From IMG/VR virus record IMGVR_UViG_3300025818_000085, positions 1-33,980 of that record: DNA of 33,980 bases. One strand, given 5' to 3'. This stretch comes from a virus. The notes beneath the pieces were generated by a model that did no database searches, was not told the origin of the DNA, and saw only the letters and a program-made list of their open reading frames with translations. A program made the translations under genes and the position numbers. Below are positions 5,568-22,995 of this stretch, in pieces. Positions within the stretch are counted from its first letter, which is position 1. Each line of letters opens with the position of its first letter.

Positions 5568-6986
5568 CTAAAATATTTTAAATTTTGGAAGCACCGTCGG
5601 CTTTTGCATTTTTTCGTTTCGACCTAACATTGTTTTATGCTCGCCCCCGCCCAACAACGCATACTGCAACGCATCGTGTGGGTGGCTAAATCGGTTTTTT
5701 TCCGGCTCCAATTTATACTTGGCCTCGCCCCCAACGTTCAATCGCTTATAGTGATACCCGCCATTAAAGCCTCGGCGCACCATAGGAGCTTTCTGCCGGC
5801 TTACTACAATTCCCGGGAGGCCATTGCTCGACCGCAACAACGGCGACAATACCGCTTCTCGGCGAACCTCAAACTTATTGGACGGTGCGGGTCGAATAAA
5901 TAAGTTTTCTTTCTTAAACAAATCAAACGCTGTAATCCCTTGCTGATCCCTAAAGCCACCTGACGGATCGCCCCATAACTCAGTATTCGCTTGGCTATAC
6001 TCTTTAGTCAAATACTTATTCAGATTTCTAGCAAAGTCTTGGAGCGGCCACGTCTCACCATCGGGCGTTAAAAATTCATCAATCACCCGCCATCGCCCAA
6101 AAGGGTCTCTCTGAGCCATAACTGCCGACGGGGTGAGTCCAAAGTCCACGCCCACAATTAGCGGCAATACCGAGTCATACTTCACATCCGCACTTGAATG
6201 TGTGGCGTCCACATAATTGTCCCCATACACCGGCTTGCCCTCTTGTATAAACCCATACTTTCCATGAACGTACACATCAATCCATTCTTGAGGCTTGCCC
6301 GCCATCATGTTGTTATAATAACCGGGCGGTAAATTTTCCACATTCTCTGCGCCTTCACTTAACCCAGACGGTTGATCAAAAAACACCCACCCCTCCGGCT
6401 GTTGAATTTCAGCCATGTTGTACCACCAGCTAGAATCATCGGGCGGGTTAGTATCCGCTATAACACCAAACCGAGTCGGCCACTGCCCCTCAAAACCTTC
6501 GGGCTTCTCTCTGTGCGACGGATACCGACCTACCCGCCCCGTAGCCGCGTCTAAAATTTCCTTCAAAATATAACGCGCCTCGTTAAACCAGATCATTGTA
6601 GCTTCTAACGACAATAATTTTTTAACGTCTTCCGGACGGTCTAACGCTAAAAAAATAACTTCTGACTCCACATCGTCAATCTTAATATGATGCGAGATCG
6701 GCGGCTTTCGGTTTACCTTGCCAAACACTTCTTCTGGGAACCAGTCCAGCCAAGTCTTTAACGTCGTCGTCTCAAGCTCCGGTGCCGTATTCCTAACCAC
6801 GATATGCCGCGTCCGGCGAATCCCGTCTTTTGATTTTGCTTGAGTCTTCATAACCACAAACAACTCAAAACACATACCCACCGACTTCCCAGAGCCAATC
6901 GGCCCTTTCACACCTCGGAAAAAAGCATCCGAGTTATGAAACTTCGAAAGCGTTGGCGAAGCCTTATAGTTTAATTCAAAGTTCAT
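5568..6986 (-). CDS. terL: Terminase large subunit (DNA packaging ATPase/nuclease)
   Basis: 472 aa. The motor pumps the genome into the prohead and cuts it. Walker A is GPIGSGKS (residues 28-35); Walker B is the hydrophobic strand MIWFNEA (131-137) with the catalytic Glu. The RNase H-like nuclease domain follows, with acidic residues at GVDFGLTPS (D281) and LWGDPSGG (D340) and a C-terminal HPHDALQYA motif near 443-451. All key residues are present. The ATG at 6986 directly abuts the previous stop. It is placed after the small terminase and before the portal. Confidence 0.93.
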   Translation of the reverse strand: MNFELNYKASPTLSKFHNSDAFFRGVKGPIGSGKSVGMCFELFVVMKTQAKSKDGIRRTRHIVVRNTAPELETTTLKTWLDWFPEEVFGKVNRKPPISHHIKIDDVESEVIFLALDRPEDVKKLLSLEATMIWFNEARYILKEILDAATGRVGRYPSHREKPEGFEGQWPTRFGVIADTNPPDDSSWWYNMAEIQQPEGWVFFDQPSGLSEGAENVENLPPGYYNNMMAGKPQEWIDVYVHGKYGFIQEGKPVYGDNYVDATHSSADVKYDSVLPLIVGVDFGLTPSAVMAQRDPFGRWRVIDEFLTPDGETWPLQDFARNLNKYLTKEYSQANTELWGDPSGGFRDQQGITAFDLFKKENLFIRPAPSNKFEVRREAVLSPLLRSSNGLPGIVVSRQKAPMVRRGFNGGYHYKRLNVGGEAKYKLEPEKNRFSHPHDALQYALLGGGEHKTMLGRNEKMQKPTVLPKFKIF

Positions 6987-7415
6987 TTACTTTTTAGGCG
7001 CCCAATCTGCAAGCGTTTTGAAGTCGGCAAAAGGGTCAGGTTCTTCCCATCCCTCAAACGCACCTGTTTTAAATCGACGAGCGAATTCCATCTCTCTATC
7101 GCCAAACTGATTTAAAACTTCTGTTGAAACCTCATCTTCCAAATTGTAATAAGAATTATAGTACGGAACAGAGGCCATTAGCCAATCCTCACCGACAGAA
7201 CCATCCGGCATCCGAGCTACAAATACTAGCACGAGTTTTGAGTCTGGTATGCAAACCGCGCTCCTGAAAATTATAAAATATTTATCTGTTAACCCACATA
7301 TCGGAAAGTTAGTTGAGTTCCAACACTTAAACTTAGCTCTTAATTGAGGGCCATACTTTTCAGCCCGAGTACGAAATTCTAACTTCTTTTGCGTTTCTTC
7401 TTTCAATTCGATCAT
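6987..7415 (-). CDS. Unknown protein, member of a three-copy small family in this phage
   Basis: 142 aa. The core GLTDKYFIIFRSA followed by LVLVFVARMPDGSVGEDW is shared in pattern with the next gene (AVSDDFLVLR then YYRIYPRTAKGDI) and with the gene at 27018-27368 (AVTDKYFVIEWF then RCFIYGRQPDGTLGD). I infer a small beta-sheet domain ending in a turn. No enzyme motif is visible. It overlaps its upstream neighbour by ATGA and abuts terL, so it is co-expressed with packaging genes. Function unknown. Confidence 0.6.
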   Translation of the reverse strand: MIELKEETQKKLEFRTRAEKYGPQLRAKFKCWNSTNFPICGLTDKYFIIFRSAVCIPDSKLVLVFVARMPDGSVGEDWLMASVPYYNSYYNLEDEVSTEVLNQFGDREMEFARRFKTGAFEGWEEPDPFADFKTLADWAPKK

Positions 7416-8941: not shown

Positions 8942-9095
8942 CACAAGAAATATGTATCGTGTCCAGTGTTTACGTGTTCTCTATGAGTAGTATTATCCGA
9001 GGCGCAGAGGGTAGACCCCTTCTAACCACTCTAACCCGCTTAAACAGCTTACAGAGCGATAATTTGGCATCATTTTACGCTTTTATCCGCTTAAC

Positions 9096-9125
9096 CTAAC
9101 AAAACATACGTTAATAGTATATAAT
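9096..9125 (+). promoter_or_regulatory. Candidate rightward sigma70 promoter
   Basis: A perfect TATAAT (9120-9125) follows CTAACA (9096-9101) by 18 nt. Transcription would start near 9132, almost at the ATG at 9135. The first gene would then be leaderless, or its true start may lie further in. Confidence 0.4.
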
Positions 9126-9134
9126 GTTGATTAT

Positions 9135-9410
9135 ATGGCTGAATATCGCTATTTGATACGCATAAGCTACAAAAACCGTGACAGTTTCCAGACTTGGAAG
9201 CCAGCGAGAACGGCAGCCCAAGCAATGATCAAGGCCTTAGAAGCCTACAAACATCGTATCAGCCACATCACTAGCTGTTGCGTCATAGGCCAACCGATAC
9301 CAGTGTGTAAGAGACGGCGAAAACAACAACAGGCTGAACAGCTTCCAGATCGGGCAGAGCGTTACAAAAAGCCAAAGCCACCAAAGCCGCCAAGTGTATT
9401 CGATATTTAA
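9135..9410 (+). CDS. Small basic protein of unknown function
   Basis: 91 aa, very basic C-terminal half (RRRKQQQAEQ, then KKPKPPKPP). The N-terminal part YRYLIRISYKNRDSF followed by ARTAAQAMIKALEAY looks like a small alpha/beta domain, and the tail suggests nucleic-acid contact. No Shine-Dalgarno precedes the ATG. The only promoter-like box lies immediately upstream, so expression would have to be leaderless or come from further upstream. It stands alone inside the control region, which also suggests a regulatory role. Not assigned to a family. Confidence 0.5.
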   Translation: MAEYRYLIRISYKNRDSFQTWKPARTAAQAMIKALEAYKHRISHITSCCVIGQPIPVCKRRRKQQQAEQLPDRAERYKKPKPPKPPSVFDI

Positions 9411-9423
9411 TCAATAAAACCCC

Positions 9424-9452
9424 TTGCGCAAAAAAGCCAGTTGTGTTATACT
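9424..9452 (+). promoter_or_regulatory. Weak candidate rightward promoter
   Basis: TTGCGC (9424-9429) is followed after 17 nt by TATACT (9447-9452), with 3/6 and 5/6 matches to the sigma70 consensus. The predicted start lies inside the alternating CA/CG tract. Confidence 0.25.
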
Positions 9453-9495
9453 CACGCGCGCACACACGCGCACACGCGCCCACGCACGCACACGT
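9453..9495. repeat. Alternating pyrimidine-purine (CA/CG) tract
   Basis: An almost unbroken run of CG and CA dinucleotides over about 43 bp; the alternation slips once at 9479-9481. Such tracts can adopt Z-DNA under negative supercoiling. It borders a very AT-rich stretch. Confidence 0.8.
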
Positions 9496-9686
9496 AAAAA
9501 AAAGTGTAAAATATATATTTACCTATCACACCTATATTTATAATATCTATATTTTACTAACTAAATACGTTACTGTAGTTTTTTGAAAATTGATTTTTAT
9601 TTTTATTTTAGTGTATTTTACAACGATTATTGAAAAAAAACAAAAATTTATAAAAATCAGTGTATTACAATGCCTTGTGTAATCCC

Positions 9687-9733
9687 GTATATACAAAAAA
9701 AAGTGATGTATTTTAGCGTTTTTTTGTATATAC
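9687..9733. repeat. Perfect inverted repeat, 15-bp arms
   Basis: GTATATAC followed by seven A (9687-9701) pairs with seven T followed by GTATATAC (9719-9733), with a 17-nt spacer. GTATATAC is itself a palindrome. It could extrude a cruciform or bind a dimeric protein. Confidence 0.85.
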
Positions 9734-9759
9734 AAATTTAGGCGTAAATGTGTAATACC

Positions 9760-9824
9760 GTATTACAAAACTACACGTGCATTTGTATTACAGTATTACA
9801 AACGCACGTGTAGTTTTGTAATAC
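9760..9824. repeat. Long inverted repeat, 28-bp arms (27 of 28 paired)
   Basis: Left arm 9760-9787 (GTATTACAAAACTACACGTG...) and right arm 9797-9824 (...CACGTGTAGTTTTGTAATAC), 9-nt loop, one mismatch. The arms contain the GTATTAC motif and a CACGTG core. Immediately left, GTAATAC (9752-9758) adds a second small palindrome. It is not followed by a T-run, so it is not a simple terminator. Confidence 0.88.
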
Positions 9825-9912
9825 ACAAAATGGCCAATTATACAGCATTTTGTTTTTTGCGATTTTTGTATTACGACACTAGGCGTAATATCATACATCA
9901 AGAAATTTCGAT

Positions 9913-9941
9913 TTGACGTGACTGGTCACGGTTGATACTAT
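9913..9941 (+). promoter_or_regulatory. Main early promoter candidate with operator dyad
   Basis: TTGACG (9913-9918), an exact 17-nt spacer and TACTAT (9936-9941) form a sigma70-like promoter about 54 bp before the first gene of the rightward operon. A dyad CGTGAC-TG-GTCACG (9917-9930) fills the -35/spacer region, where a bound repressor would block polymerase. No repressor gene is identified in the window. Confidence 0.5.
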
Positions 9942-9994
9942 TGGTTATGTCGATAGTTTTAGTGGTTTTATTAGTTTAAAATGGAGTGAAAAAA

Positions 9995-10336
9995 ATGAAT
10001 ACTAAAGACAGATTGCGGGAACAATGTGAACGAATTGCGGATGAAATAAGTATAGGCAATTATGCCATGGAGGATTGGGAGCTTGAGGAATGGGACGAGC
10101 CTTGCGCAGCGCATTATTTAAGCGACGCGCTAGATATGGAGTACACCGTGACTGGCAATTTTGAGTATAGAGGCGCAAGGGTATGCGTTGCGCTTGGCGG
10201 GCCAAACATATACATAGACACACGGTACAATGTTGTGCGAGGCTATTGGGGCGGTGATAGTGTGGAGGTACCTTACAGTCACGACAAACTAGGTGTCGAC
10301 GCTTATTGTTGCGAGCGGTACGACGCGTCCCGATAA
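9995..10336 (+). CDS. Unknown protein A (paralogue of the 10764-11054 gene)
   Basis: 113 aa from the ATG at 9995, chosen because GGAG lies 8 nt upstream; an in-frame GTG at 9986 is also open. The C-terminal half carries LDMEYTV, YRGARVCVALGGPNIYIDTR and VRGYWGGD, with a D-x-L-G-x-D ending. The same layout (VGVTYFV, AELIIDVSGADVHIDTR, VYAYWDAEG, LGLDNYW) occurs in the gene at 10764, so the two are duplicates. This strand pattern (G-x-x-I-x-I-D-T-R) recurs in small phage proteins of unknown function. It is the first gene of the early operon, so it is likely expressed immediately after infection. Confidence 0.75.
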   Translation: MNTKDRLREQCERIADEISIGNYAMEDWELEEWDEPCAAHYLSDALDMEYTVTGNFEYRGARVCVALGGPNIYIDTRYNVVRGYWGGDSVEVPYSHDKLGVDAYCCERYDASR

Positions 10337-10767
10337 TGATAGGAATATCTAAAAGAAATGGGCGGGCGTGTTTAGACCCTGAGGATGATAATTTTGTTTA
10401 TAACTTTGTTATTCAGTGCGGGGAGCGCGGGGATAGGTTTGAGCTCAGCAAGCCTCAACAATTGCGGTTGTTAGAGGCTGGGGAGGTTCAGGCTTGGAAT
10501 CTGTATCGCAAATACAACCCCGACGCGCATATTGATTTAAGCGGTTGTGATTTTGGCGGTTTAGACCTTTGGGGTGTGAACTTTGCCCATGCGGATTTGT
10601 CTGATACATCGTTTCATGAGTCTATATTAATAGAGGCGGATTTTAAATTTTCAAAAATCTCCCAGGCTAACTTTAATTTTAGCCGTCTGTTTCTAGCTGA
10701 TTTTACTGGGGTGGACACGCATGAGGCGCGTGGGTTGACCAAGTTAATAGAAGGGTTGGGCAAATGA
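10336..10767 (+). CDS. Pentapeptide-repeat protein
   Basis: 143 aa from the ATG at 10336, which shares its A with the preceding TAA (TAATG). From about residue 70 on, consecutive A(D/N)Lxx-type pentapeptides run to about residue 130, for example IDLSGCDFGGLDLWGVNFAH then ADLSDTSFHE and ANFNFSRLFLADFTG. These fold as a right-handed quadrilateral beta-helix. Known relatives (Qnr, MfpA) mimic DNA and bind gyrase, but others have unrelated roles, so the function is open. The N-terminus MIGISKRNGR resembles the small gene at 11069. An early host-takeover role is inferred from position. Confidence 0.8.
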   Translation: MIGISKRNGRACLDPEDDNFVYNFVIQCGERGDRFELSKPQQLRLLEAGEVQAWNLYRKYNPDAHIDLSGCDFGGLDLWGVNFAHADLSDTSFHESILIEADFKFSKISQANFNFSRLFLADFTGVDTHEARGLTKLIEGLGK

Positions 10768-11054
10768 TAAGACAATGCCAGCTTATTGCCGATGAAATAG
10801 TCAAGCCGACTAAAGATATGGCTAGCTTTTTGGAAACGCTTGTTGGTGTTACATACTTTGTTAACTCGGACAAGGAGTGTGTAGGCGCAGAATTAATAAT
10901 TGATGTTAGCGGTGCTGATGTTCATATCGATACTCGGAGACAGGCCGTGTACGCATATTGGGATGCGGAGGGTACTCGAGTTGAAGTATTTTACCCCGAA
11001 GACGGATTGGGTCTTGATAATTATTGGTTCAGGAAGTATTATCGCGGCTTATAA
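10764..11054 (+). CDS. Unknown protein A' (paralogue of the 9995 gene)
   Basis: 96 aa, start overlapping the previous stop (ATGA). It shares with the 9995 gene the Q-C-x-x-I-A-D-E-I N-terminus (RQCQLIADEI versus EQCERIADEI), the V-H-I-D-T-R strand, the V-Y-A-Y-W turn and the G-L-G-L-D-N-Y ending. It lacks the acidic DWELEEWDE insert of the other copy. No catalytic motif is visible. The order A, pentapeptide gene, A', short gene suggests a duplicated pair of genes. Confidence 0.75.
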   Translation: MIRQCQLIADEIVKPTKDMASFLETLVGVTYFVNSDKECVGAELIIDVSGADVHIDTRRQAVYAYWDAEGTRVEVFYPEDGLGLDNYWFRKYYRGL

Positions 11055-11068
11055 GGGAGTTAGAGAAA

Positions 11069-11200
11069 ATGATAAGAATATCTAAAATTCATGGCCGGGT
11101 GTGGCTTAAAGTGTTTAATGACACTGGCTTAATTTATAGTGACGGCGATTTTCAGTCAATTGGTGAAGCTATGGTTGCCGCGGCTTATTATTTAAATTAA
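11069..11200 (+). CDS. Short protein of 43 aa, possible remnant duplicate of the pentapeptide gene's N-terminus
   Basis: Starts at ATG 11069 with GGGAG about 9 nt upstream and ends TAA at 11200. The first residues MIRISKIHGRVWL match the start of the pentapeptide protein (MIGISKRNGRACL) at protein and DNA level. The remainder (DGDFQSIGEAMVAAAYYLN) looks like a normal short soluble protein and has no pentapeptides. It completes the repeated A-B / A'-B' gene pattern. Confidence 0.6.
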   Translation: MIRISKIHGRVWLKVFNDTGLIYSDGDFQSIGEAMVAAAYYLN

Positions 11201-11223
11201 TTAAAATAGGAGTAAAAAACAAA

Positions 11224-11910
11224 ATGGATAATATAAACATACAAACACGTGCAGCCCGGTTAGCGTTTACCGAACGTAAGTTAAAAAAGACTGAGGTTCC
11301 GGGCGTATTAGAAAGGTTGTACGCCCAAACGAGTTGCGATACTACAAGATTATACCTTGCACGTCTTTATGCAATTTTGACCCCTAAGGTTACGCCGAAA
11401 AAAAATAAGTTGGCGTGGGTAGCGCAAGCGTGTTCCAAGGCTGATGACCAGCCAGATATGCAAAATATCTTTGTCCGAGACGGATACGCTATCGGTGCCG
11501 ATGGTTTTCGAATTCATTTTTACAAAGTGCCGTTTGATTCAATTGATTCGGCTAAGTATGACGGTAAGTTTATCGATTGCGATTTTAATATTCTAGATTT
11601 ACAAAACGTTAAGCCCCTCGACGCAACCGTTATCAAGCATTATTTGCCCGAAGTTTGGAATATGCCTTATACGCAACAAATAGATTTATCAGCTTGTGAA
11701 GTAGTACCGTTGGATGGTACTCGGGACACGGCTTATAAAGTAGCTTTGTTCAGCACAGTCTACTATTTCAACAAGCGATTTGTTGACCAGATTGCCCCGG
11801 GTGTGGCTTGCTTGACGGTTTATGCTAAAAAGGCGGGCAGCGAGTATCCCGTGTGGTTTAGTGCTGGTGAAAACAAAACCGCTGTATTAATGCCGGTACG
11901 CATTAAATAA
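11224..11910 (+). CDS. Possible sliding-clamp-fold (DNA polymerase III beta-like) protein
   Basis: 228 aa. Two features resemble bacterial beta clamps. An IFVRDGYAIGADGFRIHFYK segment (about residues 79-98) is like the clamp's 'A-T-D-G-H-R-L' strand-turn. The extreme C-terminus TAVLMPVRIK is like the clamp's closing 'Y-V-V-M-P-M-R-L'. Length would fit one or two clamp domains rather than three. Phages of several kinds carry such shortened clamp-fold proteins. Its place upstream of the primase-helicase and polymerase supports a replication role. The N-terminal 70 residues are a helical, basic extension. The assignment is tentative. Confidence 0.45.
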   Translation: MDNINIQTRAARLAFTERKLKKTEVPGVLERLYAQTSCDTTRLYLARLYAILTPKVTPKKNKLAWVAQACSKADDQPDMQNIFVRDGYAIGADGFRIHFYKVPFDSIDSAKYDGKFIDCDFNILDLQNVKPLDATVIKHYLPEVWNMPYTQQIDLSACEVVPLDGTRDTAYKVALFSTVYYFNKRFVDQIAPGVACLTVYAKKAGSEYPVWFSAGENKTAVLMPVRIK

Positions 11911-11912
11911 CA

Positions 11913-12290
11913 ATGACTAACAAACTGATTACCTTAAAAATCCCCAAACTAAAAAGCCCCGGAGCGTCCGGGGCCAGAGTAGTACCCAACCCGCTCGAGA
12001 TTCATACAACCCGAGCGGCTTATTTATACATTGGTATTGACTTAGTAGCGGTACAGGTACACAAGGGCTTGGCCGTGTTACCGTTCAAATGGTGTACCGG
12101 TGTACGTTCAGTAGATTTTGTGTGCGCCTTTCTGGTTCAGTACGGCCACAATGTTTCGGAAGGTAAGGCCGCAATTGATCAAGCCATTGAAGCCGGTACG
12201 ATTTTGGTGAAAAATGCAAGGCCTGGCGGACGTTTAACCGTGGAGATCAAGGGCGACATGGCAAAAAGTAAAAACAAGGAGGAAAAATAA
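11913..12290 (+). CDS. Unknown protein carrying a hairpin-encoding N-terminus
   Basis: 125 aa, basic, begins 2 nt after the previous stop. Core: AAYLYIGIDLVAVQVHKGLAVLPFKW, then SEGKAAIDQAIEAGTILV. No known family recognised. Codons for KSPGASGA coincide with a perfect GC-rich hairpin (11956-11974). The C-terminal codons MAKSKNKEEK plus the following Shine-Dalgarno reappear as a copy at 12981-13027, so the gene's 3' end took part in a duplication. Its stop overlaps the next start (TAATG). Confidence 0.65.
   Translation: MTNKLITLKIPKLKSPGASGARVVPNPLEIHTTRAAYLYIGIDLVAVQVHKGLAVLPFKWCTGVRSVDFVCAFLVQYGHNVSEGKAAIDQAIEAGTILVKNARPGGRLTVEIKGDMAKSKNKEEK
11948..11974 (-). terminator. Intrinsic-terminator-like hairpin on the antisense strand inside a coding region
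   Basis: GCCCCGGA (11956-11963), loop GCG, TCCGGGGC (11967-11974) is a perfect 8-bp GC stem. Read on the minus strand it is followed directly by TTTTTAGT, the standard form of a rho-independent terminator. On the plus strand no T-run follows. Confidence 0.5.
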
Positions 12291-12294
12291 TGAA
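12248..12294 (+). repeat. 47-bp junction repeat, copy 1
   Basis: CAAGGGCGACATGGCAAAA... through the Shine-Dalgarno and start codon of the next gene. It matches 12981-13027 at 43 of 47 positions. In this copy it encodes the last residues of the upstream gene. Confidence 0.85.
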
Positions 12295-12976
12295 AGACTG
12301 GACAGGATTTTGGGAGAGCGACACCCACGAATTAAAACAAATTTCTGAAGAGACGGGCGTGACTGTTGATAAGTTTCAAGACATATACGAAACGATGTAC
12401 CCGAATATACACAAATGGGCATGGTACCATCAAACGCTCAAAGATTTAAGAGAGTTACGAGAGCCCAAACCCACCGCGTATGATATAGCGCATGGTTTAA
12501 AAACTACCGAGGACGTAGAGAGATACAACGACTTACAAGCTGAGATCGACAAACTTAAAGATGAATTGAACGTGTTTTGTACTAGTTTTAATATGTCGGG
12601 TGGGGGTGTTCGATTGCTACCCGTCGAGACGCCCGACTGGTTAAAAGACGTACCCGGAGTCTTCCCTTGTTCAATGTTTATTTTACGAGTTTTATGTTCA
12701 TTTAATAGGTATCTGCTAGAGAAAAGTGGATATGGCCCGGGCGTTGCAATCCCAGTGGAGGGGGAGGAATCGCCTAAATGGTGGAAGTTTTGGGACTATA
12801 GCGTTGAGCCACAGCGACAACCATGGAATCCCCCATGCTACGTAAACCGCCTTATACTTGCGTTTGGGGCTTATTTAGACTACCAAGGCATACAGTACCG
12901 CCCGTATCTGGACGATGCCCATGCGTTCCACCATTGGACGCCCCCAAAAGAGTGCGAGTATGAGGCTAACTTTTAG
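12290..12976 (+). CDS. Unknown protein bounded by direct repeats
   Basis: 228 aa. The N-terminal half is helical with a short coiled coil (YNDLQAEIDKLKDELNVF). The C-terminal half is rich in Trp, Pro and Tyr (PKWWKFWDYS, QPWNPPCY, FHHWTPP). No enzyme motif or family recognised. It starts with a strong Shine-Dalgarno (AAGGAGG) and a TAATG overlap. The whole gene lies between two 47-bp direct repeats (12248-12294 and 12981-13027), which suggests it entered as an insert or was duplicated together with the junction. Confidence 0.65.
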   Translation: MKDWTGFWESDTHELKQISEETGVTVDKFQDIYETMYPNIHKWAWYHQTLKDLRELREPKPTAYDIAHGLKTTEDVERYNDLQAEIDKLKDELNVFCTSFNMSGGGVRLLPVETPDWLKDVPGVFPCSMFILRVLCSFNRYLLEKSGYGPGVAIPVEGEESPKWWKFWDYSVEPQRQPWNPPCYVNRLILAFGAYLDYQGIQYRPYLDDAHAFHHWTPPKECEYEANF

Positions 12977-12980
12977 ATTA

Positions 12981-13027
12981 CAAGGGCGACATGGCAAAAT
13001 TTAAAAACACGGAGCAAAAATAATGAA
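12981..13027 (+). repeat. 47-bp junction repeat, copy 2
   Basis: A copy of 12248-12294 with four substitutions. Here it is intergenic. It still contains an open MAKFKNTEQK peptide remnant, a GGAG box and the TAATG that starts the next gene. Confidence 0.85.
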
Positions 13028-13304
13028 TAAACAACACATGGTTACATTTAGAACAGAAGAAGTAGTGGCACGACTATTTAAGGCGTATTGCAAAGATAAG
13101 GGCGTGACGGTCACGTGGGCCTTGTCAGCGTTCATGGCTATGGTAGTGTCCCAAGTTTATGAAGCTGACACAGAGATTGACACAATTCTGGCTGAAAAGA
13201 TAGTAGGAGCGACTTGCTACCAGCAGGAATTCATGGTACTAATTAGAGACTTAATGGGCCGAATGATAAAAAAATTGGAGGCTACACATGATGCCACGTA
13301 TTGA
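13023..13304 (+). CDS. Small ribbon-helix-helix-like protein
   Basis: 93 aa. The N-terminus MVTFRTEEVVARLFKAYCKDKGVTVTWALSAFMAMVV has the layout of ribbon-helix-helix DNA-binding proteins: a short beta strand, a helix, a G-V-T turn and a second helix. The C-terminal helix is acidic/polar (AEKIVGATCYQQEF). It may be a small transcription regulator, a plausible partner for one of the dyads upstream of the operon, but no direct evidence links them. The start is within junction repeat copy 2. Confidence 0.55.
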   Translation: MNKQHMVTFRTEEVVARLFKAYCKDKGVTVTWALSAFMAMVVSQVYEADTEIDTILAEKIVGATCYQQEFMVLIRDLMGRMIKKLEATHDATY

Positions 13305-13368
13305 ACCCCCTCAAATGCGCCAGCCAACGCTTAACAGGCACGCTGCTGCACAAATAATTTATAGTTAG
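13288..13368 (+). CDS. Possible 26-aa leader peptide before the primase gene
   Basis: ATGATG at 13288 has a good Shine-Dalgarno (GGAGGC 13277-13282). The frame (MMPRIEPPQMRQPTLNRHAA...) closes with TAG at 13368. It overlaps the end of the previous gene. It may be a real short peptide or a translational coupling device; conservation is needed to decide. Confidence 0.3.
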   Translation: MMPRIEPPQMRQPTLNRHAAAQIIYS

Positions 13369-13403
13369 ATTACCTTATCAATATCAAATCAGGAGAACAG
13401 CCA

Positions 13404-15554
13404 ATGACCCGATTACAGCCCAGTGCGGCACTACTAAAAACAACTAAAACTTTTTATGACAATGGACTTATAACCATGCCGCTTAAGGGCAAGGTACCCA
13501 TGGTAAAAAACTGGACGAATTTAGAGCTACCAGAAGCGTTTGACCCAAACTACTACACAACAAGCTCAGCAGGCTGGGTGATTCGGGAACCATATATGGT
13601 TATCGATGTGGACGTGCGATCAGAGATTAATGGAATGGTTGGCCTACAACGGCTAACTGACGACCTTAGGTTTGATTTTTTAAACAACGCGGGCGTTACG
13701 GTGCACACACCGACGGGGGGCTTGCATTTGTACTACAAGATCTTCCAGAGCGGCGTAAGCTACAAGAAAACCTTGGCCGCTTACGAAGGGTTGGACTTTT
13801 TGAGAGGCAGCCACCAAGTATTGATACCGCATAGCGAGACCGAGGCGGGCACGTACCAACTGGATGGCGGCGAAAACAAATTCTCAAATATTGTCGAGAT
13901 ACCGGAAGGATTACACTTGTTATTGACGCAAAAAGATTCGGAAGTTTGTGGGGGCACCGGTTATTTTACGGACACTAAAACAGATAAGTTACTCTTGACA
14001 GGCTACGTTAAACAGTTTGGTGTTGTTGGTGAGGGCGAGCGTAACAATGCCTTGTATAAGATGGCTTGTCGGGGCTACGATTTAGGGTTGTCGCCCGAAG
14101 TAGTACTCGGTATCGTGGCGGACGCAGAGTGTTTTGTGCCGCCATTGTCTACTAAAGAAATGGCTACAACGCTTGTGAGCGCATTGAGCACTCGGCAAAA
14201 TGAGATAGGCTCCCATGCTGTTGAGGAAGCACTGAAAGCCCTAGGCCCCATAGATACTGGCTGTTCTCTGGGCCAAGGGCTTAATGACGTGCTTCCCCAA
14301 GAGCAAGCGGACGCTCAGTTTGATGAAGTGTGCCCGTGGCATGATAAGCTACACAAAACCAAACATGGCACTGTGAGTTCTCAGAATTTTTGTGTCCGAA
14401 ATTGCGCCATATTTTTAAAAAACATGAAAGAGTTTAAGGGTAAGCTAGGGTATAATGAGTGGAGCCGTGAGACAGTGTGGCTAGAGCCATGTAGTTGGCA
14501 CGCATTTGATAAAGCGGATTGTATGCCCAATGGCATTGCGGTGACGGATGACGATTTGTTGTCAATCAAAACGTTGTTTAACGACATGGAGTTTGACCCG
14601 TTGGTCAATCAGATTTACCAAGCGGCTCGGACTGTTGGATTTGAAAAGAGTTTTCACCCGGTAAAGAAGTGGTTTAGTGAGTTGCCGGCGTGGGATGGTG
14701 TCGAGCGGGTACGTGGGCTGTTCCCAAAATATTGCAATGCTGAAGACACAGCGTTTAACCGTGAGGTTGGCGAGGTGTTGATGTGTGCGATTGTTAAGCG
14801 CATTTATGAGCCGGGGTGCAAGTACGATCACATGGTGGTATTAGTTGGCCCGGAGGAGCAAGGCAAGTCAACAGCGATTAAGTCCTTGTCGGTGTTCAAT
14901 AGTTGGTTCACGGATTCACTAGGCGATATTAACAAGACTGGTGATGCTATCCAGCAGATCAAAGGTAAGCTGATCGTGGAGGACTCAGAGCTTAATGCGT
15001 TCATGTGCCGGTCGAATACGGTGGCGAGTGTTAAGGCGTTTATATCTCGGGAGGTTGACCGAGCGCGATTGGCGTATGCGAAGTTGACCGAGGACGTTCC
15101 GCGCCAGTGTGTGTTTATGGGCACAACAAACGAAAACCAATTTCTGAATAGCGTTACGGGTAACCGCCGGATATGGCCGGTTGAGGTGTACGACATTGAC
15201 GTGCCAACGCTTACCAACGATTTACCACAGTTGTATGCGGAGGCCTTGGTTGTTTACAAAAAGCGGTACGCTGGGTTAAAGAATGGGTTGGTGTTGCAAT
15301 CGGCAGAAGCTATTGAGCAGGCCAAGAAAGCTCAGACTAGCCGCATTGAAGTGGACGAGCTTGAAAGAGTTATCCAAGAGTGGTTAAATAAAGGCGTGAG
15401 AGACGGGTTTCAGTTGAGTGATGTATGGGATGGTTTAGGTCGAGACATAATACACCTGAGCATTAAGGAACAAAAGCGTCTTGAGCGTGCGTTGTTGAAG
15501 TTGCAGTATAAACGCAGTGATAATGGATTTGTGAAGATTGGAGGAAAAAAATGA
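13404..15554 (+). CDS. Primase-polymerase / VapE-type helicase
   Basis: 716 aa with two domains. The N-terminal primase-polymerase shows DVD (D68, D70 in MVIDVDVR) and TPTGGLHLYYK (102-112), the metal-binding and sG-x-H motifs of archaeo-eukaryotic-type Prim-Pol. The C-terminal 'virulence-associated E' AAA+ domain has the entry FHPVKKWFSELPAWDGVERV, Walker A GPEEQGKST (about 479-487), an acidic strand LIVEDSEL (about 522) and the GTTNENQFLNSVTGNRRIWPVE segment with conserved N and R residues. Together these prime and unwind DNA at the fork. The ATG at 13404 has AGGAGA upstream. All key residues are present. Confidence 0.88.
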   Translation: MTRLQPSAALLKTTKTFYDNGLITMPLKGKVPMVKNWTNLELPEAFDPNYYTTSSAGWVIREPYMVIDVDVRSEINGMVGLQRLTDDLRFDFLNNAGVTVHTPTGGLHLYYKIFQSGVSYKKTLAAYEGLDFLRGSHQVLIPHSETEAGTYQLDGGENKFSNIVEIPEGLHLLLTQKDSEVCGGTGYFTDTKTDKLLLTGYVKQFGVVGEGERNNALYKMACRGYDLGLSPEVVLGIVADAECFVPPLSTKEMATTLVSALSTRQNEIGSHAVEEALKALGPIDTGCSLGQGLNDVLPQEQADAQFDEVCPWHDKLHKTKHGTVSSQNFCVRNCAIFLKNMKEFKGKLGYNEWSRETVWLEPCSWHAFDKADCMPNGIAVTDDDLLSIKTLFNDMEFDPLVNQIYQAARTVGFEKSFHPVKKWFSELPAWDGVERVRGLFPKYCNAEDTAFNREVGEVLMCAIVKRIYEPGCKYDHMVVLVGPEEQGKSTAIKSLSVFNSWFTDSLGDINKTGDAIQQIKGKLIVEDSELNAFMCRSNTVASVKAFISREVDRARLAYAKLTEDVPRQCVFMGTTNENQFLNSVTGNRRIWPVEVYDIDVPTLTNDLPQLYAEALVVYKKRYAGLKNGLVLQSAEAIEQAKKAQTSRIEVDELERVIQEWLNKGVRDGFQLSDVWDGLGRDIIHLSIKEQKRLERALLKLQYKRSDNGFVKIGGKK

Positions 15555-15793
15555 TTGACGCATTAACATATTTTCAAAGAGTTATATTTACAATAGCGTA
15601 TTGGGGCTCGCTGATAGGGGCCATGTGGTTTGTTTGTCGCGGCCCAAACTTAGACGAAAACGATAAGACCTTAGGCGGAGTATGCTACAACGTTTTAATA
15701 CGAACCACACTGGCGGCGGTTGCGTTAGTCGTGTGGTACTACGTATTCACGTTTATATTCTTTTTATTCTTTGAAACTGTGGGGGCGTTGTAA
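15551..15793 (+). CDS. Small membrane protein, two transmembrane segments
   Basis: 80 aa. Hydrophobic segments at about residues 8-27 (FTIAYWGSLIGAMWFVC) and 47-75 (LIRTTLAAVALVVWYYVF, then FIFFLFF), separated by a polar loop with DENDK. The start overlaps the primase gene stop (ATGA). No lysis or exclusion motif recognised. A superinfection-exclusion or membrane-anchoring role is possible but unsupported. Confidence 0.65.
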   Translation: MIDALTYFQRVIFTIAYWGSLIGAMWFVCRGPNLDENDKTLGGVCYNVLIRTTLAAVALVVWYYVFTFIFFLFFETVGAL

Positions 15794-15794
15794 G

Positions 15795-16040
15795 ATGAGT
15801 GAAGATATACGAAGCCATAACGTCGGAGCCTCGGACTATTCCAAGTACAAAATACAGCCATGGGACATTTGGCTTGAGTACAAATTGAACCCATGGGACG
15901 CTGATATTGTTAAACGTGTATTACGCAACAAACCGGGTGAGCGACGACTGGATTATGAAAAGATTATTCATGTGTGTCAGGAACGTATCCGGCAAATAGA
16001 TAACACGATAGATAACACGAGAATACAAGTAGCGGAGTAG
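15795..16040 (+). CDS. DUF3310-like protein
   Basis: 81 aa from the ATG at 15795; an upstream in-frame TTG exists but is less likely. DYSKYKIQPWDIWLEYKLNPWDADIVKRVLRNK followed by LDYEKIIHVCQERI matches the DUF3310 pattern: Y-x-x-I-Q-P-x-D, then I-x-K-x-x-x-R, then D-x-x-K. This small phage family is sometimes annotated as nucleotide kinase-like without firm proof. The C-terminal IDNTIDNT comes from a 12-bp tandem duplication (15996-16019). It lies between a membrane gene and the DUF4116 block. Confidence 0.65.
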   Translation: MSEDIRSHNVGASDYSKYKIQPWDIWLEYKLNPWDADIVKRVLRNKPGERRLDYEKIIHVCQERIRQIDNTIDNTRIQVAE

Positions 16041-16047
16041 AAAGAAA

Positions 16048-17226
16048 ATGATTAATGAGAACAGTACAAAGGCAGAAATGTTGGAAGCGATGAAGCTGCA
16101 AGTATGTGCGTTGGAGTATGCGTCTGTTGAGTTGCGTAATGATCGTGATCTGGTGCTGGAAGCGGTAAGGAAGAATGGGTGGGCGTTGGAGTATGCTAGT
16201 GAGGCATTGCGTAACGATCGTGAAGTGGTGATGGAAGCGGTAAGGGAAAATGGTTTAGCGTTGGAGTATGCGAGTGAGGAATTGAAGGCTGATCGTGAGT
16301 TCGTGATAGCAGCGGTGAAGAAGAATGGGGATGCGTTGCGGTATGCGAGTGAGGAATTGCGTGCTGATCGTGATTTTGTTCTAGCGGCGGTGAAACAAGA
16401 TGGGCGTGCGTTGCGGTATGCGAGTGAAGAATTGCAGAATGATCGTGAAGTCGTGATGGAAGCGGTGAAGCAGAATGGGTGGGTGTTGAAATATGCGAGT
16501 GAGGAATTGCGTGCTGATCGTGAGGTGGTGCTGGAAGCGGTGAAGAAATATAGCTATGCGTTGGCGTATGCAAGCGAGGAATTAAAGGCTGATCGTGAGG
16601 TGGTGATGGAAGCGGTGAAGCATGATGGGTTTGCGTTGTATTATGCTGGCGAGGAATTGCGTGGTGATCGTGAGGTTGTGATGGATGCGTTTGGATTTGC
16701 GTTGAAGTATGCGAGTGAGGAACTTCTGGCTGATCGTGAGTTTATGCTTGAAGCGATGAAGCTGCAAGTATGTGCGTTGAAGTATGCGAGTGAGGAACTT
16801 CTGGCTGATCGTGAGTTTATGCTTGAAGCGATGAAGCTGCAAGTATGTGCGTTGGAGTATGCGTCTGTTGAGTTGCGTAATGATCGTGATCTGGTGCTGG
16901 AAGCGGTTCAACGGAATGGCTGGGCGTTGGAGTATGCGAGTGAGGAATTCCGTGCTGATCGTGAAGTCGTGATGGAAGCGGTGAAGCAGAATGGGTGGGT
17001 GTTGAAATATGCGAGTGAGGAATTGCGTGCTGATCGTGAGGTGGTGCTGGAAGCGGTGAAGAAATATAGCTATGCGTTGGCGTATGCAAGCGAGGAATTA
17101 AAGGCTGATCGTGAGGTGGTGATGGCAGCGGTGAAGCAGAATGGGTTGGCGTTGAAGTATGCGAGTGAGGAATTGAGATATGACAGGGAGATTATTGATT
17201 GTGGGCTGGGGATAAAAAATGATTGA
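16048..17226 (+). CDS. DUF4116 repeat protein 1 (15 repeats)
   Basis: 392 aa made almost entirely of 25-residue repeats after a 21-residue cap (MINENSTKAEMLEAMKLQ). Consensus: L-x-Y-A-S-E-E-L-x-x-D-R-E-V-V-x-E-A-V-K-x-N-G-x-A. I count 15 units; unit 8 is 22 residues and the last is degenerate, which accounts exactly for 392. This is the DUF4116 pattern, seen in bacteria, protists and their viruses, and by appearance a two-helix alpha-solenoid. No catalytic residues are conserved, so a binding scaffold or mimic is more likely than an enzyme. Repeats 5-7 and 12-14 are copies, and 9 and 10 are identical in tandem. The stop overlaps the next start by 8 nt. Confidence 0.85.
   Translation: MINENSTKAEMLEAMKLQVCALEYASVELRNDRDLVLEAVRKNGWALEYASEALRNDREVVMEAVRENGLALEYASEELKADREFVIAAVKKNGDALRYASEELRADRDFVLAAVKQDGRALRYASEELQNDREVVMEAVKQNGWVLKYASEELRADREVVLEAVKKYSYALAYASEELKADREVVMEAVKHDGFALYYAGEELRGDREVVMDAFGFALKYASEELLADREFMLEAMKLQVCALKYASEELLADREFMLEAMKLQVCALEYASVELRNDRDLVLEAVQRNGWALEYASEEFRADREVVMEAVKQNGWVLKYASEELRADREVVLEAVKKYSYALAYASEELKADREVVMAAVKQNGLALKYASEELRYDREIIDCGLGIKND
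16440..16609 (+). repeat. 170-bp exact duplicate within DUF4116 gene 1, copy 1
   Basis: Bases 16440-16609 are identical to 16956-17125 (offset 516 bp, a multiple of three). The copies cover more than two repeat units, and the perfect DNA identity shows recent duplication or gene conversion. Confidence 0.9.
16698..16854 (+). repeat. Exact tandem 75-bp repeat units 9 and 10
   Basis: 16698-16779 and 16773-16854 are identical at an offset of 75 bp, giving two identical adjacent protein repeats (EELLADREFMLEAMKLQVCA). A further 83 bp (16084-16166) recurs exactly at 16825-16907, so the cap and first repeat were copied inside the array. Confidence 0.9.
16956..17125 (+). repeat. 170-bp exact duplicate within DUF4116 gene 1, copy 2
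   Basis: Second copy of 16440-16609; the identity ends at 17126 (C versus A). Confidence 0.9.
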
Positions 17227-18124
17227 TGAAAATAGCACGAGAGAAGAAATGTTGGCAGCGGTGAAGCAGAATGGGAATGCGTTGCGGTATGCGAGTGAGG
17301 AATTGCGTGGTGATAAAGACGTGGTGCTGGCAGCGGTGAAGCAGGATGGCTGGGCGTTGTATTATGCTAGCGAGGAATTGAAGGCTGATCGTGAGGTGGT
17401 GATGGAAGCGGTGAGGCAAGATGGATGTGCGTTGCAGTATGCGAGTGCGGAATTGAAGCGTGATCGTGATGTTGTGATGGAAGCGGTGAAGCAGGGTGGG
17501 TATGCGTTGGAGTATGCGAGCCATGAATTGAAGAACGATCGTGAAGTGGTGGCAGCAGCGGTTCAAAAGACTGGATGGGCGTTGATGTTTGCATCTGAGG
17601 CTCTGAGTGGGGATAAAGATTTGGTGATGGAAGCGGTGAGTAAGAGTGATAGTGCGGATTCGATCTTAGAAGTAGCCTCTGAGGCATTGCAGAATGATCG
17701 CGATGTGGTGATGGAAGCGGTAAAGCGGAATGGTGTTGCGTTGCGGTATGCGAGTAAGGAATTGCGTAATGATAAAGAAGTTGTGCTTGCCGCGGTGAAG
17801 CAGGATGGCTTGGCGTTGGAGTATGCAAGTAATGAGTTGCGTGGCGATAAAGAAGTTGTAATGGAAGCGGTGAAGCAGGATGGCTATGCGTTGCAGTATG
17901 CGAGTGAGGAATTACGCAATGACAAAGAGGTGGTACTGGCAGCGGTTGGTTACAATGGGAATTTCTTGAGGAGTGGGCGTGCGTTGAAATATGCGAGTGA
18001 GGAATTGAGGAATGATATAGATGTGGTTAGGGCAGCTTTGAGTAAGTCTTGGGACGCGGTTAACTATGCAAGTAGGCAAATCCAACGTAACATTATCCAA
18101 GATTGGCTAGGAATTAAAGAGTAA
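17219..18124 (+). CDS. DUF4116 repeat protein 2 (10-11 repeats)
   Basis: 301 aa, same design: cap MIDENSTREEMLAAVKQNGNA, then units such as LRYASEELRGDKDVVLAAVKQDG. Two units carry short insertions (KSDSADSI, and NGNFLRSGRA) and the last (VNYASRQIQRNIIQDWLGIKE) is degenerate. It ends LGIKE, echoing LGIKND at the end of protein 1, so the whole gene, not only its repeats, was duplicated. The units are more diverged than in protein 1. The ATG overlaps the previous TGA as ATGATTGA. Function unknown. Confidence 0.85.
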   Translation: MIDENSTREEMLAAVKQNGNALRYASEELRGDKDVVLAAVKQDGWALYYASEELKADREVVMEAVRQDGCALQYASAELKRDRDVVMEAVKQGGYALEYASHELKNDREVVAAAVQKTGWALMFASEALSGDKDLVMEAVSKSDSADSILEVASEALQNDRDVVMEAVKRNGVALRYASKELRNDKEVVLAAVKQDGLALEYASNELRGDKEVVMEAVKQDGYALQYASEELRNDKEVVLAAVGYNGNFLRSGRALKYASEELRNDIDVVRAALSKSWDAVNYASRQIQRNIIQDWLGIKE

Positions 18125-18127
18125 AAA

Positions 18128-18538
18128 ATGATTAAGAACAAAAGTACGAAAGAGAAAATACTGTCGAGCCTAAAGTTTAACACAATTGGGTTGGTTTATG
18201 CGGGTGATGACTTGCTGGCTGATCGTGAGTTTATCCTTGAAGCGATGGAGCGGCAAGTAAGTGCGTTGGCGTATGCGAGTGGAGACCTGCTGGCTGATCG
18301 TGAGTTTATGCTTGACGCGATGAAGCGGCAAGTAAGTGCGTTGGATTATGCGAGTACTGAGCTGAGGGTTGATCGTGATTTTATGCTTGAAGCCGTGAAA
18401 ACGAACGGGCTCGCCTTGGCGTACACAAGTAAGAGATTGCAGGCTGATCGCGACCTCGTCATGGCGGCGGTTAAGCAGGATGTTCGGGCGTTGCGGTGGG
18501 CAAGTAAGGAATTAAAAGGTGAGTTCGACGATGATTAA
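18128..18538 (+). CDS. DUF4116 repeat protein 3 (about 4 repeats)
   Basis: 136 aa: cap MIKNKSTKEKILSSLKFNTIG, then four 25-residue units (for example LAYASGDLLADREFMLDAMKRQVSA) and a short acidic end (KGEFDDD). Its units resemble units 9-10 of protein 1 (L-A-D-R-E-F-M-L-E-A-M-K). It may be a shortened copy. It starts 3 nt after the previous stop and overlaps the SNF2 gene by 8 nt (ATGATTAA), the same kind of overlap as between proteins 1 and 2. Function unknown. Confidence 0.82.
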   Translation: MIKNKSTKEKILSSLKFNTIGLVYAGDDLLADREFILEAMERQVSALAYASGDLLADREFMLDAMKRQVSALDYASTELRVDRDFMLEAVKTNGLALAYTSKRLQADRDLVMAAVKQDVRALRWASKELKGEFDDD

Positions 18539-20141
18539 GCCAACTTTAACTTATGACTCACTAACGCAAGAGTATTTTTATGCTTGCAGTCGCGAGGAGA
18601 AAGACATACCGAAACAGTGCCGGATGAAGTGGTCAGCTGGAAACACAGCTTGGAAAACTAAAGACTGGGCGTTAGCCATGAGAGCCGCAGAGCTTTCAGG
18701 TATAGGGACTGCCATGTTCAAAGATAAACTAATTAAGCCACCAGCTCGGCTCACCCTACCGGATTTTTTATATGACTACCAGAAGGAAGGCATCCAAACG
18801 ATCGTGGCCAATAAAAACCTATTGTTGGCCGACGAGCAAGGGCTAGGAAAAACGGTACAAACCATTGAGGCCTTGCGGTACATAGACGCTCGACGCATTT
18901 TAGTATTGTGTCCGGCCTCACTAAAGTATATGTGGCAGGAACAATTTGACCAATGGTCGGACAACCTACTCACCCAAGTAGTAAAAAACGGGAAGTCTAT
19001 AATCGATCCGCCAAAAAATTGGGAGATACCGCCTTATGACCCGGTACAATTTAATCCAGAGGACGAACACCCATTAACTCCGGTTCAGATTAACGGTGAG
19101 TCCAGAATCATACAACCATGCAACGTCGTCATTGCTAACTACGATCTGGTGTCTAAACGGTATATCTATGAGCAGTTACGCGCATGGGCCCCCGATATGG
19201 TGATCTATGATGAAGCGCATTACCTTAAGAACCCCACGTCCAAACGGGCCAAGGCGTCGTTTCTCCTGGGGGCTAACGCTAACCGGCGGCTGATGCTTAC
19301 TGGTACCCCGATGCTTAACCGGCCTATCGAGCTTTATAGCATACTTCGGTTTTTAAAACGAGAAGCTGTGGAACCGTATGACAATTATAAAAAATACGGG
19401 TATAAGTTTTGTAACGGTAAAGAGGGCCCATTTGGTTTTGATGTTAAGGGAGCAAGTTGTACCGACGAGTTAAACTACAGGCTCAAACGCACGGTCATGC
19501 TCCGGCGGCTAAAGGCCGATGTGCTTACCGATCTACCGAGCAAGACGATGCAGATTATTCCCATGGAGCAAACCAAAGACACTAAAAAGATAGTCAAGCA
19601 GGAAGGATTGTTTGATGTAAATAAGATTTTAGAGAAGCCGGACGCCAACCTTATTGGCGAGATGGCTACTATCCGTCGAGAGCTTGGAGAAGCTAAGTTA
19701 CCCCAGAGCATTAGTTACATTAAAGATGTAATGGCAAGTGGCGTTGAGAAGGTTGTGGTGTTTGCGTATCACAAGTCAGTATGCGAGGGGCTGTACGAAG
19801 CGTTTAAAGACGACGGTGCGGTGCTAGTCTATGGCGGTACGGCTTCAACTGATCGCCAACGCTACGTCGATCGGTTTCAGAAAGACGCAGACACTAAAGT
19901 ATTTATCGGCCAGATACAAGCTGCTGGCACTGGGCTTACCCTAACTGCAGCCAGTCATGTAGTGTTTGTAGAGAACAGTTGGGTGCCGGGCGAGATGGAC
20001 CAAGCAGTCGATCGCTGCCACCGCATTGGCCAAAATAATAAAGTAACGGCGCAAGTATTGGTTGTTAAGGATAGTGTTGACCATGTTATAATGAGATCAA
20101 TGTTTTTTAAGAAGAGAAGGATTAAGGAGGTTTTAAAATGA
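18531..20141 (+). CDS. SNF2-family DNA helicase/translocase
   Basis: 536 aa from the ATG at 18531 (AGGTGAG upstream; a GTG 12 nt earlier is also in frame). After an N-terminal region it has LPDFLYDYQKEGIQ (Q-motif-like), Walker A ADEQGLGKT (about 100-108), Walker B DEAH (about 226), LTGTP (motif III), then the second RecA domain with VVVFAYHKSV, an AAGTGLTLTAASHVVF motif V and QAVDRCHRIGQ (about 491, motif VI). RIGQ is typical of SNF2 proteins, and the compact size resembles the SMARCAL1-like phage versions. It likely remodels forks or recombination intermediates. ATGA overlap with the next gene. Confidence 0.92.
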   Translation: MIKPTLTYDSLTQEYFYACSREEKDIPKQCRMKWSAGNTAWKTKDWALAMRAAELSGIGTAMFKDKLIKPPARLTLPDFLYDYQKEGIQTIVANKNLLLADEQGLGKTVQTIEALRYIDARRILVLCPASLKYMWQEQFDQWSDNLLTQVVKNGKSIIDPPKNWEIPPYDPVQFNPEDEHPLTPVQINGESRIIQPCNVVIANYDLVSKRYIYEQLRAWAPDMVIYDEAHYLKNPTSKRAKASFLLGANANRRLMLTGTPMLNRPIELYSILRFLKREAVEPYDNYKKYGYKFCNGKEGPFGFDVKGASCTDELNYRLKRTVMLRRLKADVLTDLPSKTMQIIPMEQTKDTKKIVKQEGLFDVNKILEKPDANLIGEMATIRRELGEAKLPQSISYIKDVMASGVEKVVVFAYHKSVCEGLYEAFKDDGAVLVYGGTASTDRQRYVDRFQKDADTKVFIGQIQAAGTGLTLTAASHVVFVENSWVPGEMDQAVDRCHRIGQNNKVTAQVLVVKDSVDHVIMRSMFFKKRRIKEVLK

Positions 20142-21016
20142 ATGTGTTGAGTTTGTTTGACGGTATGAGTTGTGGCCAAATTGCGCTAGACCGCCTCGGC
20201 ATAAACGTAGAAAAGTATTATGCAAGTGAGATTGACAAATACGCCATTAAGATTGCTCAGAAAAACTACCCAAACACTATACAATTGGGCGATATTAAAA
20301 ACGTAAAGGGTGAAGACCTGCCAACTATTGATTTAATTTTGGCGGGGTCGCCTTGTCAAGATTTGAGTAGAGCCAAAACAGATGGCGAAGGCCTTAATGG
20401 CGAAAGGAGTGGGTTGTTTTGGGAGTATGTGAGAATTTTAAAAAAAGTAAATCCAAAATATTTTCTTTTGGAAAATGTTGTAATGAGGAAAGAGTGGGCC
20501 GATATAATAAGTAAAGAACTTGATGTAAAACCAATAGAGATAAACTCAAGCTTAGTTTCTGCGCAGAATAGAAAAAGAATGTACTGGACTAATATACCAA
20601 ACATAAAACAACCAAAGGACAAGGGTATTGTGCTTGGAGATATTATCTATGATGACACATATAAGGTATTTACGGATGAAAGAATAACCAAAACAAAAAA
20701 GGCGACAAAAAATTACATTAAGTGGGATTTGAGTGGCAAAGGTTATTGGTCGCAACAAGATAGGGCTTACTTCAAAGAAAAAAAAGTATGTGCCTTACCT
20801 AAAACAAGTCCCGCTAATAAATTAAATATTGTTTTAGATTATGAAAATGATATTTATAGACGCATGCATCCAATAGAGGCTGAAAGATGTCAAAATGTAC
20901 CCGATAACTATACAAGTGGGGTGAGTGATACTAAAAGACTTGAAATGCTTGGTAACGGATGGACTGTAGACGTTATTTGTCACATTTTAAAAGGAGTAGG
21001 CTATGGAAGTAATTGA
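20138..21016 (+). CDS. DNA cytosine-5 methyltransferase
   Basis: 292 aa. It transfers a methyl group from S-adenosylmethionine to cytosine C5. Motif I: LSLFDGMSCGQIAL; motif II/III: YYASEID, then GDI; motif IV: GSPCQDLS with the catalytic Cys (about residue 73); motif VI: FLLENV; motif VIII: QNRKRMYW; a reduced target-recognition region; motif X: LEMLGNGWTVDVI. All catalytic motifs are intact. No restriction enzyme is adjacent, so it probably protects phage DNA or acts alone. Its codons are clearly richer in A/T than flanking genes, suggesting recent acquisition. GGAGG precedes the ATG and it overlaps the SNF2 stop. Confidence 0.93.
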   Translation: MNVLSLFDGMSCGQIALDRLGINVEKYYASEIDKYAIKIAQKNYPNTIQLGDIKNVKGEDLPTIDLILAGSPCQDLSRAKTDGEGLNGERSGLFWEYVRILKKVNPKYFLLENVVMRKEWADIISKELDVKPIEINSSLVSAQNRKRMYWTNIPNIKQPKDKGIVLGDIIYDDTYKVFTDERITKTKKATKNYIKWDLSGKGYWSQQDRAYFKEKKVCALPKTSPANKLNIVLDYENDIYRRMHPIEAERCQNVPDNYTSGVSDTKRLEMLGNGWTVDVICHILKGVGYGSN

Positions 21017-21362
21017 TCATCGAACAGAAAAACTTAGTAAGATTGTTGGGCTAGAAAAGAACCTAGACATGACGGCTCAATACGCGCCTCGACTCGTTAA
21101 ACGCTTGGGGGTGGGTAGTAAACATGCGTTCCCGAGCTGTTATAGTTTCGATGCAACGTATGGGTATTTTGTAGCCAAGGACGGCAGCAAGCTCCCGGGC
21201 GCACGGGTGCATATACACCACAACCTATTGGACTTATCGGTTGTGGAAAACTGGGCACTGTCCTACGTTGACGAAATACTAGACCCAAGGAACCGAGCAT
21301 TAAAGGATCTGGTTAAACGCATGGCGAATTCGTTTAGAGCCGGAGCGACCCGTGTTAGTTAA
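21003..21362 (+). CDS. Unknown protein between methyltransferase and HD hydrolase
   Basis: 119 aa, overlapping the end of the methyltransferase by 14 nt and the next start by 11 nt. Recognisable features: DHRTEKLSKIVGL N-terminus, AFPSCYSFDATYGYFVAKDG, then HIHHNLLDLSVVENWALSYVDE. The His cluster (HIHH) might bind metal, but no family is recognised. Base composition returns to that of the main operon, so it is not part of the transferred methyltransferase segment. Confidence 0.6.
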   Translation: MEVIDHRTEKLSKIVGLEKNLDMTAQYAPRLVKRLGVGSKHAFPSCYSFDATYGYFVAKDGSKLPGARVHIHHNLLDLSVVENWALSYVDEILDPRNRALKDLVKRMANSFRAGATRVS

Positions 21363-22994: not shown

Positions 22995-22995
22995 A

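Follow-up and report, generated by a model that had tools for sequence, protein, structure and literature searches.

A probable iteron-type replication origin beside the AT-richest DNA of an uncultivated virus of bacteria

What is the function of the short, repeat-dense stretch that precedes the replication genes of an uncultivated virus? The window, i.e. the whole stretch of DNA analysed here (IMG/VR virus record IMGVR_UViG_3300025818_000085, 33,980 bases), carries leftward virion genes on both outer parts (capsid, portal-like head-tail adaptor, terminase, tail and internal virion protein) and rightward replication genes from 9995 to 27995. A preliminary description of the region just before the latter proposed a replication origin or a master switch. 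The origin-like reading is the best supported of these: iterons lie next to the AT-richest DNA and the GC-skew minimum, are kept in relatives and are replaced by another array in a distant one (G011). Positions 9494-9985 are thus suggested to be an iteron-type replication origin (probability about 0.8), and the features that bear the weight are the heptamers, the 33-bp units and the AT block. The region and its borders are built as follows:

9135-9410, plus strand: gene for a 91-aa basic protein, abutting the region; 63-95% identical and likewise placed in every relative that extends this far
9452-9493, no strand: CA/CG alternating tract; 0.55 identity and 41% gaps, missing in L008, L014, L020 and L032
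9506-9557, no strand: AT dyad with arms 9506-9518 and 9545-9557, one mismatch
9507-9656, no strand: AT-rich block, the GC minimum of the genome
9561-9660, no strand: indel-free AT block (ATACGTTACTGTA...TTTTACAACGATTATT...); identity 0.89, gap fraction 0.00
9662-9685, plus strand: outer left iteron, GTATTAC with a degenerate GTGTAAT; GTATTAC present in every close relative at a constant distance to the AT block
9687-9733, no strand: 15-bp-arm inverted repeat, specific to the window's phage
9705-9717: arm element GATGTATTTTAGC, inside the 15-bp-arm inverted repeat
9752-9824, plus strand: 33-bp iteron array, GTAATACnGTATTAC units at 9752 and 9785 and a half unit at 9818; spacing common to relatives
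9832-9851, minus strand: arm element in inverted orientation, GGCTAAAATACATCATTTT type, mirroring 9705-9717
9868-9891, plus strand: outer right iteron, GTATTAC-ACACTAGGC-GTAATAT type, kept in all relatives including L021
9913-9941, plus strand: predicted sigma70-type promoter TTGACG-17-TACTAT of the early/replication operon; 0.91 identity over 9901-9944
9995-10336, plus strand: first early gene, 113 aa; relatives have an unrelated gene instead

Seven GTATTAC/GTAATAC heptamers had been counted, and exactly seven are present (9662, 9752, 9760, 9785, 9793, 9818 and 9868), while the remaining 33.4 kb of the window hold six further, dispersed copies. Local dinucleotide shuffles give an expectation of 0.27 and none of 5000 reaches seven; whole-window shuffles never place more than three in 220 bp. 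The direct and inverted short sites hence form a non-random cluster, organised as 33-bp units that begin at 9752, 9785 and 9818 and have the core GTAWTACnGTAWTAC. Moreover, an unbiased scan for repeated 8-mers gives 9601-9900 as the top cluster of the window, and in G002 and G005 higher scores come only from coding DUF4116 repeats. In the window itself, three genes of tandem DUF4116 repeats occupy 16048-18538 (coding-strand GC skew +0.5, third positions up to +0.87); their copy number and location differ among relatives.

The region had also been called AT-rich, and the 150 bp with the lowest GC in the genome (9507-9656, 15.3% GC; next lowest 25%) indeed lie immediately left of the heptamers. 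In each of the five genomes compared (the window, G002, G003, G005 and G007) the GC minimum falls at the homologous place, and the block adjoining the iterons is a probable DNA unwinding element. Chance is excluded as the source of both the heptamers and this block. The AT dyad at its left end has 11-22 pairs in 11/11 sequences with a loop of variable length, and paired changes are found in L171 (T-A to G-C) and L021 (A-T to T-A).

Other elements of the preliminary description exist but do not belong to what relatives keep. The CA/CG tract is real, and no alternating purine-pyrimidine run of the window is longer than its 27 bp at 9453-9479; as an origin feature it falls away, being outside the conserved core and missing in four relatives. 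The perfect 15-bp-arm inverted repeat (9687-9701/9719-9733) is likewise present, and the repeat credited with 28-bp arms has arms of 32 nt that are 94% complementary (9760-9791/9793-9824), but most relatives keep neither as a dyad, and the large repeat, unlike the 33-bp spacing, is not shared. A hairpin function was therefore rejected for both; a quasi-palindromic unit has probably given rise to them as by-products. An interrupted palindrome of 162 bp (9695-9856) is also found in relatives. Its extrusion as a cruciform was set aside because the two arms of one genome differ and, by eye, show no compensating changes; the arms seem likelier to be inverted protein sites.

The relatives comprise ten close ones and the more distant L021/L167/G007, found by PrimPol, DNA pattern and TerL and then aligned. 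A blastn search of 9000-10500 against cultured phages gave no match, and an exact GTAATACNGTATTAC search of viral contigs returned mostly chance contigs, plus the relatives. Conservation of the heptamer had been proposed as a check, and six or seven heptamers are kept in relatives at fixed spacing: the first site is followed after 89-90 bp by the 33-bp units and after a further 50 or 39-40 bp by the last site, the two spacer lengths corresponding to a shift of about one helical turn. Across the array (0.72 identity to the window) the heptamers are constant and the intervening bases variable. Of the non-coding parts, the AT block and the promoter are conserved best, and neither contains indels.

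GC skew, the other check proposed, has its cumulative minimum at the region or within 0.75 kb of it in 5/5 genomes. In the window it falls at 9568, 94 bp left of the first heptamer, and in three genomes it is at most 94 bp from that heptamer (94 bp left, 25 bp right and 94 bp left); in G002 it lies 733 bp left of the array on a flat curve, only 8 counts below the array value, and in G007 about 240 bp from the homologous place. Gene direction confounds these values, with leftward genes left and rightward genes right of the region, and since skew tracks gene direction it is little proof on its own. The direction switch is near 8.9-9.1 kb, and the minimum at 9568 lies past the rightward 91-aa gene. 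The coding strand of this gene has slightly more C than G in 8/9 versions, unlike the remaining rightward genes, which weakly favours the region over the gene-divergence point, the sequences being short.

Could the region be a packaging (pac) or termination site instead? Related contigs start at different genes and two of them (G002 and G011) have overlapping ends, so circularly permuted genomes fit; such genomes require a pac site somewhere, and the terminase genes lie 2-3 kb left of the region. However, repeats, an AT minimum, a skew minimum rather than a maximum and an adjoining early promoter would be unexpected there, and we regard a pac or termination site as very improbable.

The promoter bears on another alternative. 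Promoter-like matches number 10, against 5.5 in shuffles, and 9913-9941 is one of them, so the evidence for it is its conservation. The first gene behind it is different and unrelated in nearly every relative, marking an early-gene cassette site. Among the genes that follow are:

11224-11910, plus strand: clamp-like protein, weak PHROG match to DNA polymerase processivity factor (E 1e-6)
13023-13304: conserved 93-aa protein, RHH-like by eye
13404-15554, plus strand: PrimPol-VapE primase-helicase, candidate initiator, with Prim-Pol, PriCT_1 and VapE domains
18519, plus strand: SNF2-type helicase
21846, plus strand: DUF2800 nuclease
22996, plus strand: Gp2.5/DUF2815-type SSB
23611, plus strand: PolA
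27516, plus strand: RuvC-like protein

The clamp-like gene is a possible phage sliding clamp in a genome that also has a PolA-type polymerase. A 47-bp repeat with a ribosome-binding site and start codon precedes two consecutive genes (12248-12294 and 12981-13027) and has more copies at other gene borders in relatives; it may mark where accessory early genes insert or recombine. An Rfam scan of the window gave no RNA family.

The heptamers might instead be operators of a phage repressor or activator of this early promoter, with the AT block as an upstream activating or UP-like element, and the region would then serve transcriptional control only. The promoter sits 39 bp from the last heptamer in the best conserved stretch, and the conserved RHH-like 93-aa protein could be the regulator. 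Operators, however, need no genome AT minimum 250 bp upstream, nor 100 bp free of indels, and AT and skew minima also accompany the analogous arrays of sequence-unrelated relatives described below. The RHH identity was dropped, as the model of the 93-aa protein has no beta strand, a mean pLDDT of 70 and no fold match. A lambda-type lysogeny switch would have a repressor and an integrase nearby; neither family occurs in the genes scanned (small ORFs partly), no tRNA was found for a tRNA-linked att site, and the 4.5 kb absent from the window are virion protein genes in G002. The master switch thus has less support than the origin, though a conserved early promoter adjoins the array, and control without initiation appears unlikely.

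Analogous arrays recur in distant phages, either at the same place or beside VapE genes. For instance, L210/G011 (38,780 bp, contig ends overlapping; TerL 54% and PrimPol-VapE 35-36% identical to those of the window) has 10 of its 12 genome copies of TGTAATG/CATTACA within 26343-26676 (~330 bp), its top 8-mer cluster. They lie on both sides of 14-15% GC DNA, the genome minimum, with the skew minimum at 27034, and occupy the same gap as in the window, with a short rightward gene on one side and the early genes on the other. A new repeat word with unchanged place and design would be expected of an origin co-evolving with its initiator, although a regulator-operator pair could produce it too. In L258, CGTGTAAGG-type iterons flank a TA-rich block on two sides directly 5' of VapE, where the GC and skew minima also fall.

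TerL of the window is 43-44% identical to that of Pelagibacter phage Hodr, Methylophilales phage MEP301 and Vibrio phage VA-RY-3. In VA-RY-3 (MW900438, L180) the non-coding early gap 6782-7242 holds 6/6 genome copies of AGGATAAA and an AT dyad, and is predicted to be the origin or control region of this cultured phage. It resembles the window in TerL (44%), divergent layout and a top genome repeat cluster at the syntenic place, but has no common sequence, another replication set with a DNA polymerase III alpha and a gap that is not its lowest-GC window. No repeat cluster of this kind appears in the 8-mer scan of MEP301 and Hodr, whose TerL is related and whose replication genes are different.

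Which protein would read the array? The preliminary description had recognised no initiator of a known iteron-binding family; a candidate is PrimPol-VapE, which combines a Prim-Pol with a VapE-like_dom (E 7e-63), matches PDB 7pds ('similar to D. nodosus vapE', E 3e-45) and belongs to the same VapE family as the staphylococcal-island Rep initiators. Phage-inducible islands use VapE-family proteins as Rep/Pri-Rep initiators, and the plasmid-tested origins of these islands have two iteron sets flanking an AT-rich stretch immediately 3' of rep (PMC6092414). The window has such a VapE-type gene, but its region is not of the PICI type by membership: the array (9662-9874) is upstream of the gene and not immediately 3' of it, none of the window's top repeat windows lies directly 3' of PrimPol-VapE, and all seven heptamers are on one side of the AT block. 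It probably works alike. No host genomes carrying a related PrimPol were found.

We surveyed 40 other viral VapE loci by comparing 460 bp around the VapE 3' end with the rest of the contig, and in 16 the densest repeat window of the contig lies directly 3' of VapE; the 16 include several close relatives and represent about eleven independent repeat words. By inspection, phage U5 has a repeat array up to 1 kb downstream of VapE, and three cultured phages have arrays directly 3' of it:

L264 3902-4241: Staphylococcus phage PHM, GATGCAACA/GATACAACA
L266 4560-5243: Rhodobacter phage RcAqua, AGGGTGA
L267 4354-4581: Gardnerella phage AB1, GTGACAA

Together with L258, these loci show that the pairing of VapE and iterons is widespread and that its position relative to the gene varies. 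A GTAA-like core is seen in several arrays (GTGTAAT in the window and G011, GTGTAAG in L258, GGTAAAC and GTGGTAAC elsewhere).

We consider it fairly probable that PrimPol-VapE opens the origin of the window, and it may well read the heptamers in this family. The main difficulty for such a reader is L021/G007, which has only one heptamer left while its PrimPol-VapE is 81% identical, most of the C-terminus included. L021 keeps the left end of the indel-free AT block and has 4 copies of GYGTAA, part of the same 33-bp unit, against 0.6 expected; the 8-mer scan gave no exact array in G007. The loss of heptamers in L021 despite such similarity implies that the heptamer is bound by a different protein, or else that the core being recognised lies elsewhere in the unit (GYGTAA).

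The former would be a variant of the iteron origin with a different binder: the heptamer would be bound by a small protein of phage or host origin (the 91-aa or 93-aa protein, or a host factor like IHF/HU), and PrimPol-VapE would load later, perhaps at the AT block. The state of L021 and the basic 91-aa gene that always abuts the region fit this variant. Other VapE-type systems, however, need no second binder, as PICI rep and ori suffice for plasmid replication (PMC6092414), arrays adjoin VapE genes across phages, and the 91-aa model resembles widespread small folds only. A separate binder is possible, but the less probable arrangement.

The 91-aa protein has a predicted beta-beta-alpha-beta fold (AlphaFold) and an invariant C-terminus, PSVFDI. 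It has no match in cultured phages, Pfam or PHROGs, and PDB profile matches (E 0.4-0.65) were dismissed as chance. Its model matches ribosomal L18a/LX-like folds (Z 6-7), T7 Gp2 (Z 5.5) and phi29 p6 (Z 3.9), and we did not name a function from a fold so widespread among small proteins. A TATAAT-like box ends ~10 bp before its ATG, and the transcript may be leaderless.

Returning to the iteron origin, we infer that replication would begin with an initiator binding the GTATTAC/GTAATAC iterons (9662-9874). Bound and bent, the array would strain the adjacent 150-bp AT block until this block melts, the replicative helicase and primase would load there, and forks would move outward along both divergently transcribed halves of the circular genome. 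PrimPol-VapE as initiator would bring its own primase and helicase. As the promoter next to the array would drive the operon containing PrimPol-VapE, transcription and initiation could influence each other. Against this stands that the array is not beside the presumed initiator gene. We tentatively suggest, at somewhat less than even odds, that VapE-type and PrimPol-VapE proteins are general iteron-binding, self-loading initiators of tailed phages whose origins can be read from a nearby array, and that in the window's family the array moved to the early promoter, coupling initiation to early transcription. If so, the GTAA-like core would reflect a common DNA-binding domain.

The region is a known kind of object in an uncharacterised family, with a variant layout. 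Like the SaPI/PICI pri-rep-ori modules (PMC6092414), it combines a relative of VapE-type Rep with iterons beside an AT-rich probable melting site. It differs in that the array is 3.5 kb upstream of the VapE gene, the iterons flank the AT block on one side only (two-sided in G011 and L258), and the protein has an N-terminal AEP PrimPol fusion in a free-living podovirus-like genome. Direct initiator-site repeats on one side of an AT-rich unwinding element are shared with the iteron plasmid origins RK2 oriV and F oriS (PMC4081077), whereas the window has no plasmid Rep (double winged-helix) gene, no DnaA boxes by eye, and 33-bp units with their own core. The primase-polymerase of phage NrS-1 is likewise a PrimPol with a C-terminal helicase region and recognises a specific sequence, its proposed origin (PMC7102993); in contrast to duplex iterons by an AT block, this consists of two 8-nt sites on a single-stranded template (PMC7102993). 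For lytic podoviruses without a T7-like polymerase few origins are known; the PolA/VapE/DUF2800/DUF2815 replication set is common among phages. The comparison yields a concrete, testable origin for the window's family, and the densest repeat window near VapE would be a simple origin predictor for many VapE phages, including cultured ones such as RcAqua and AB1.
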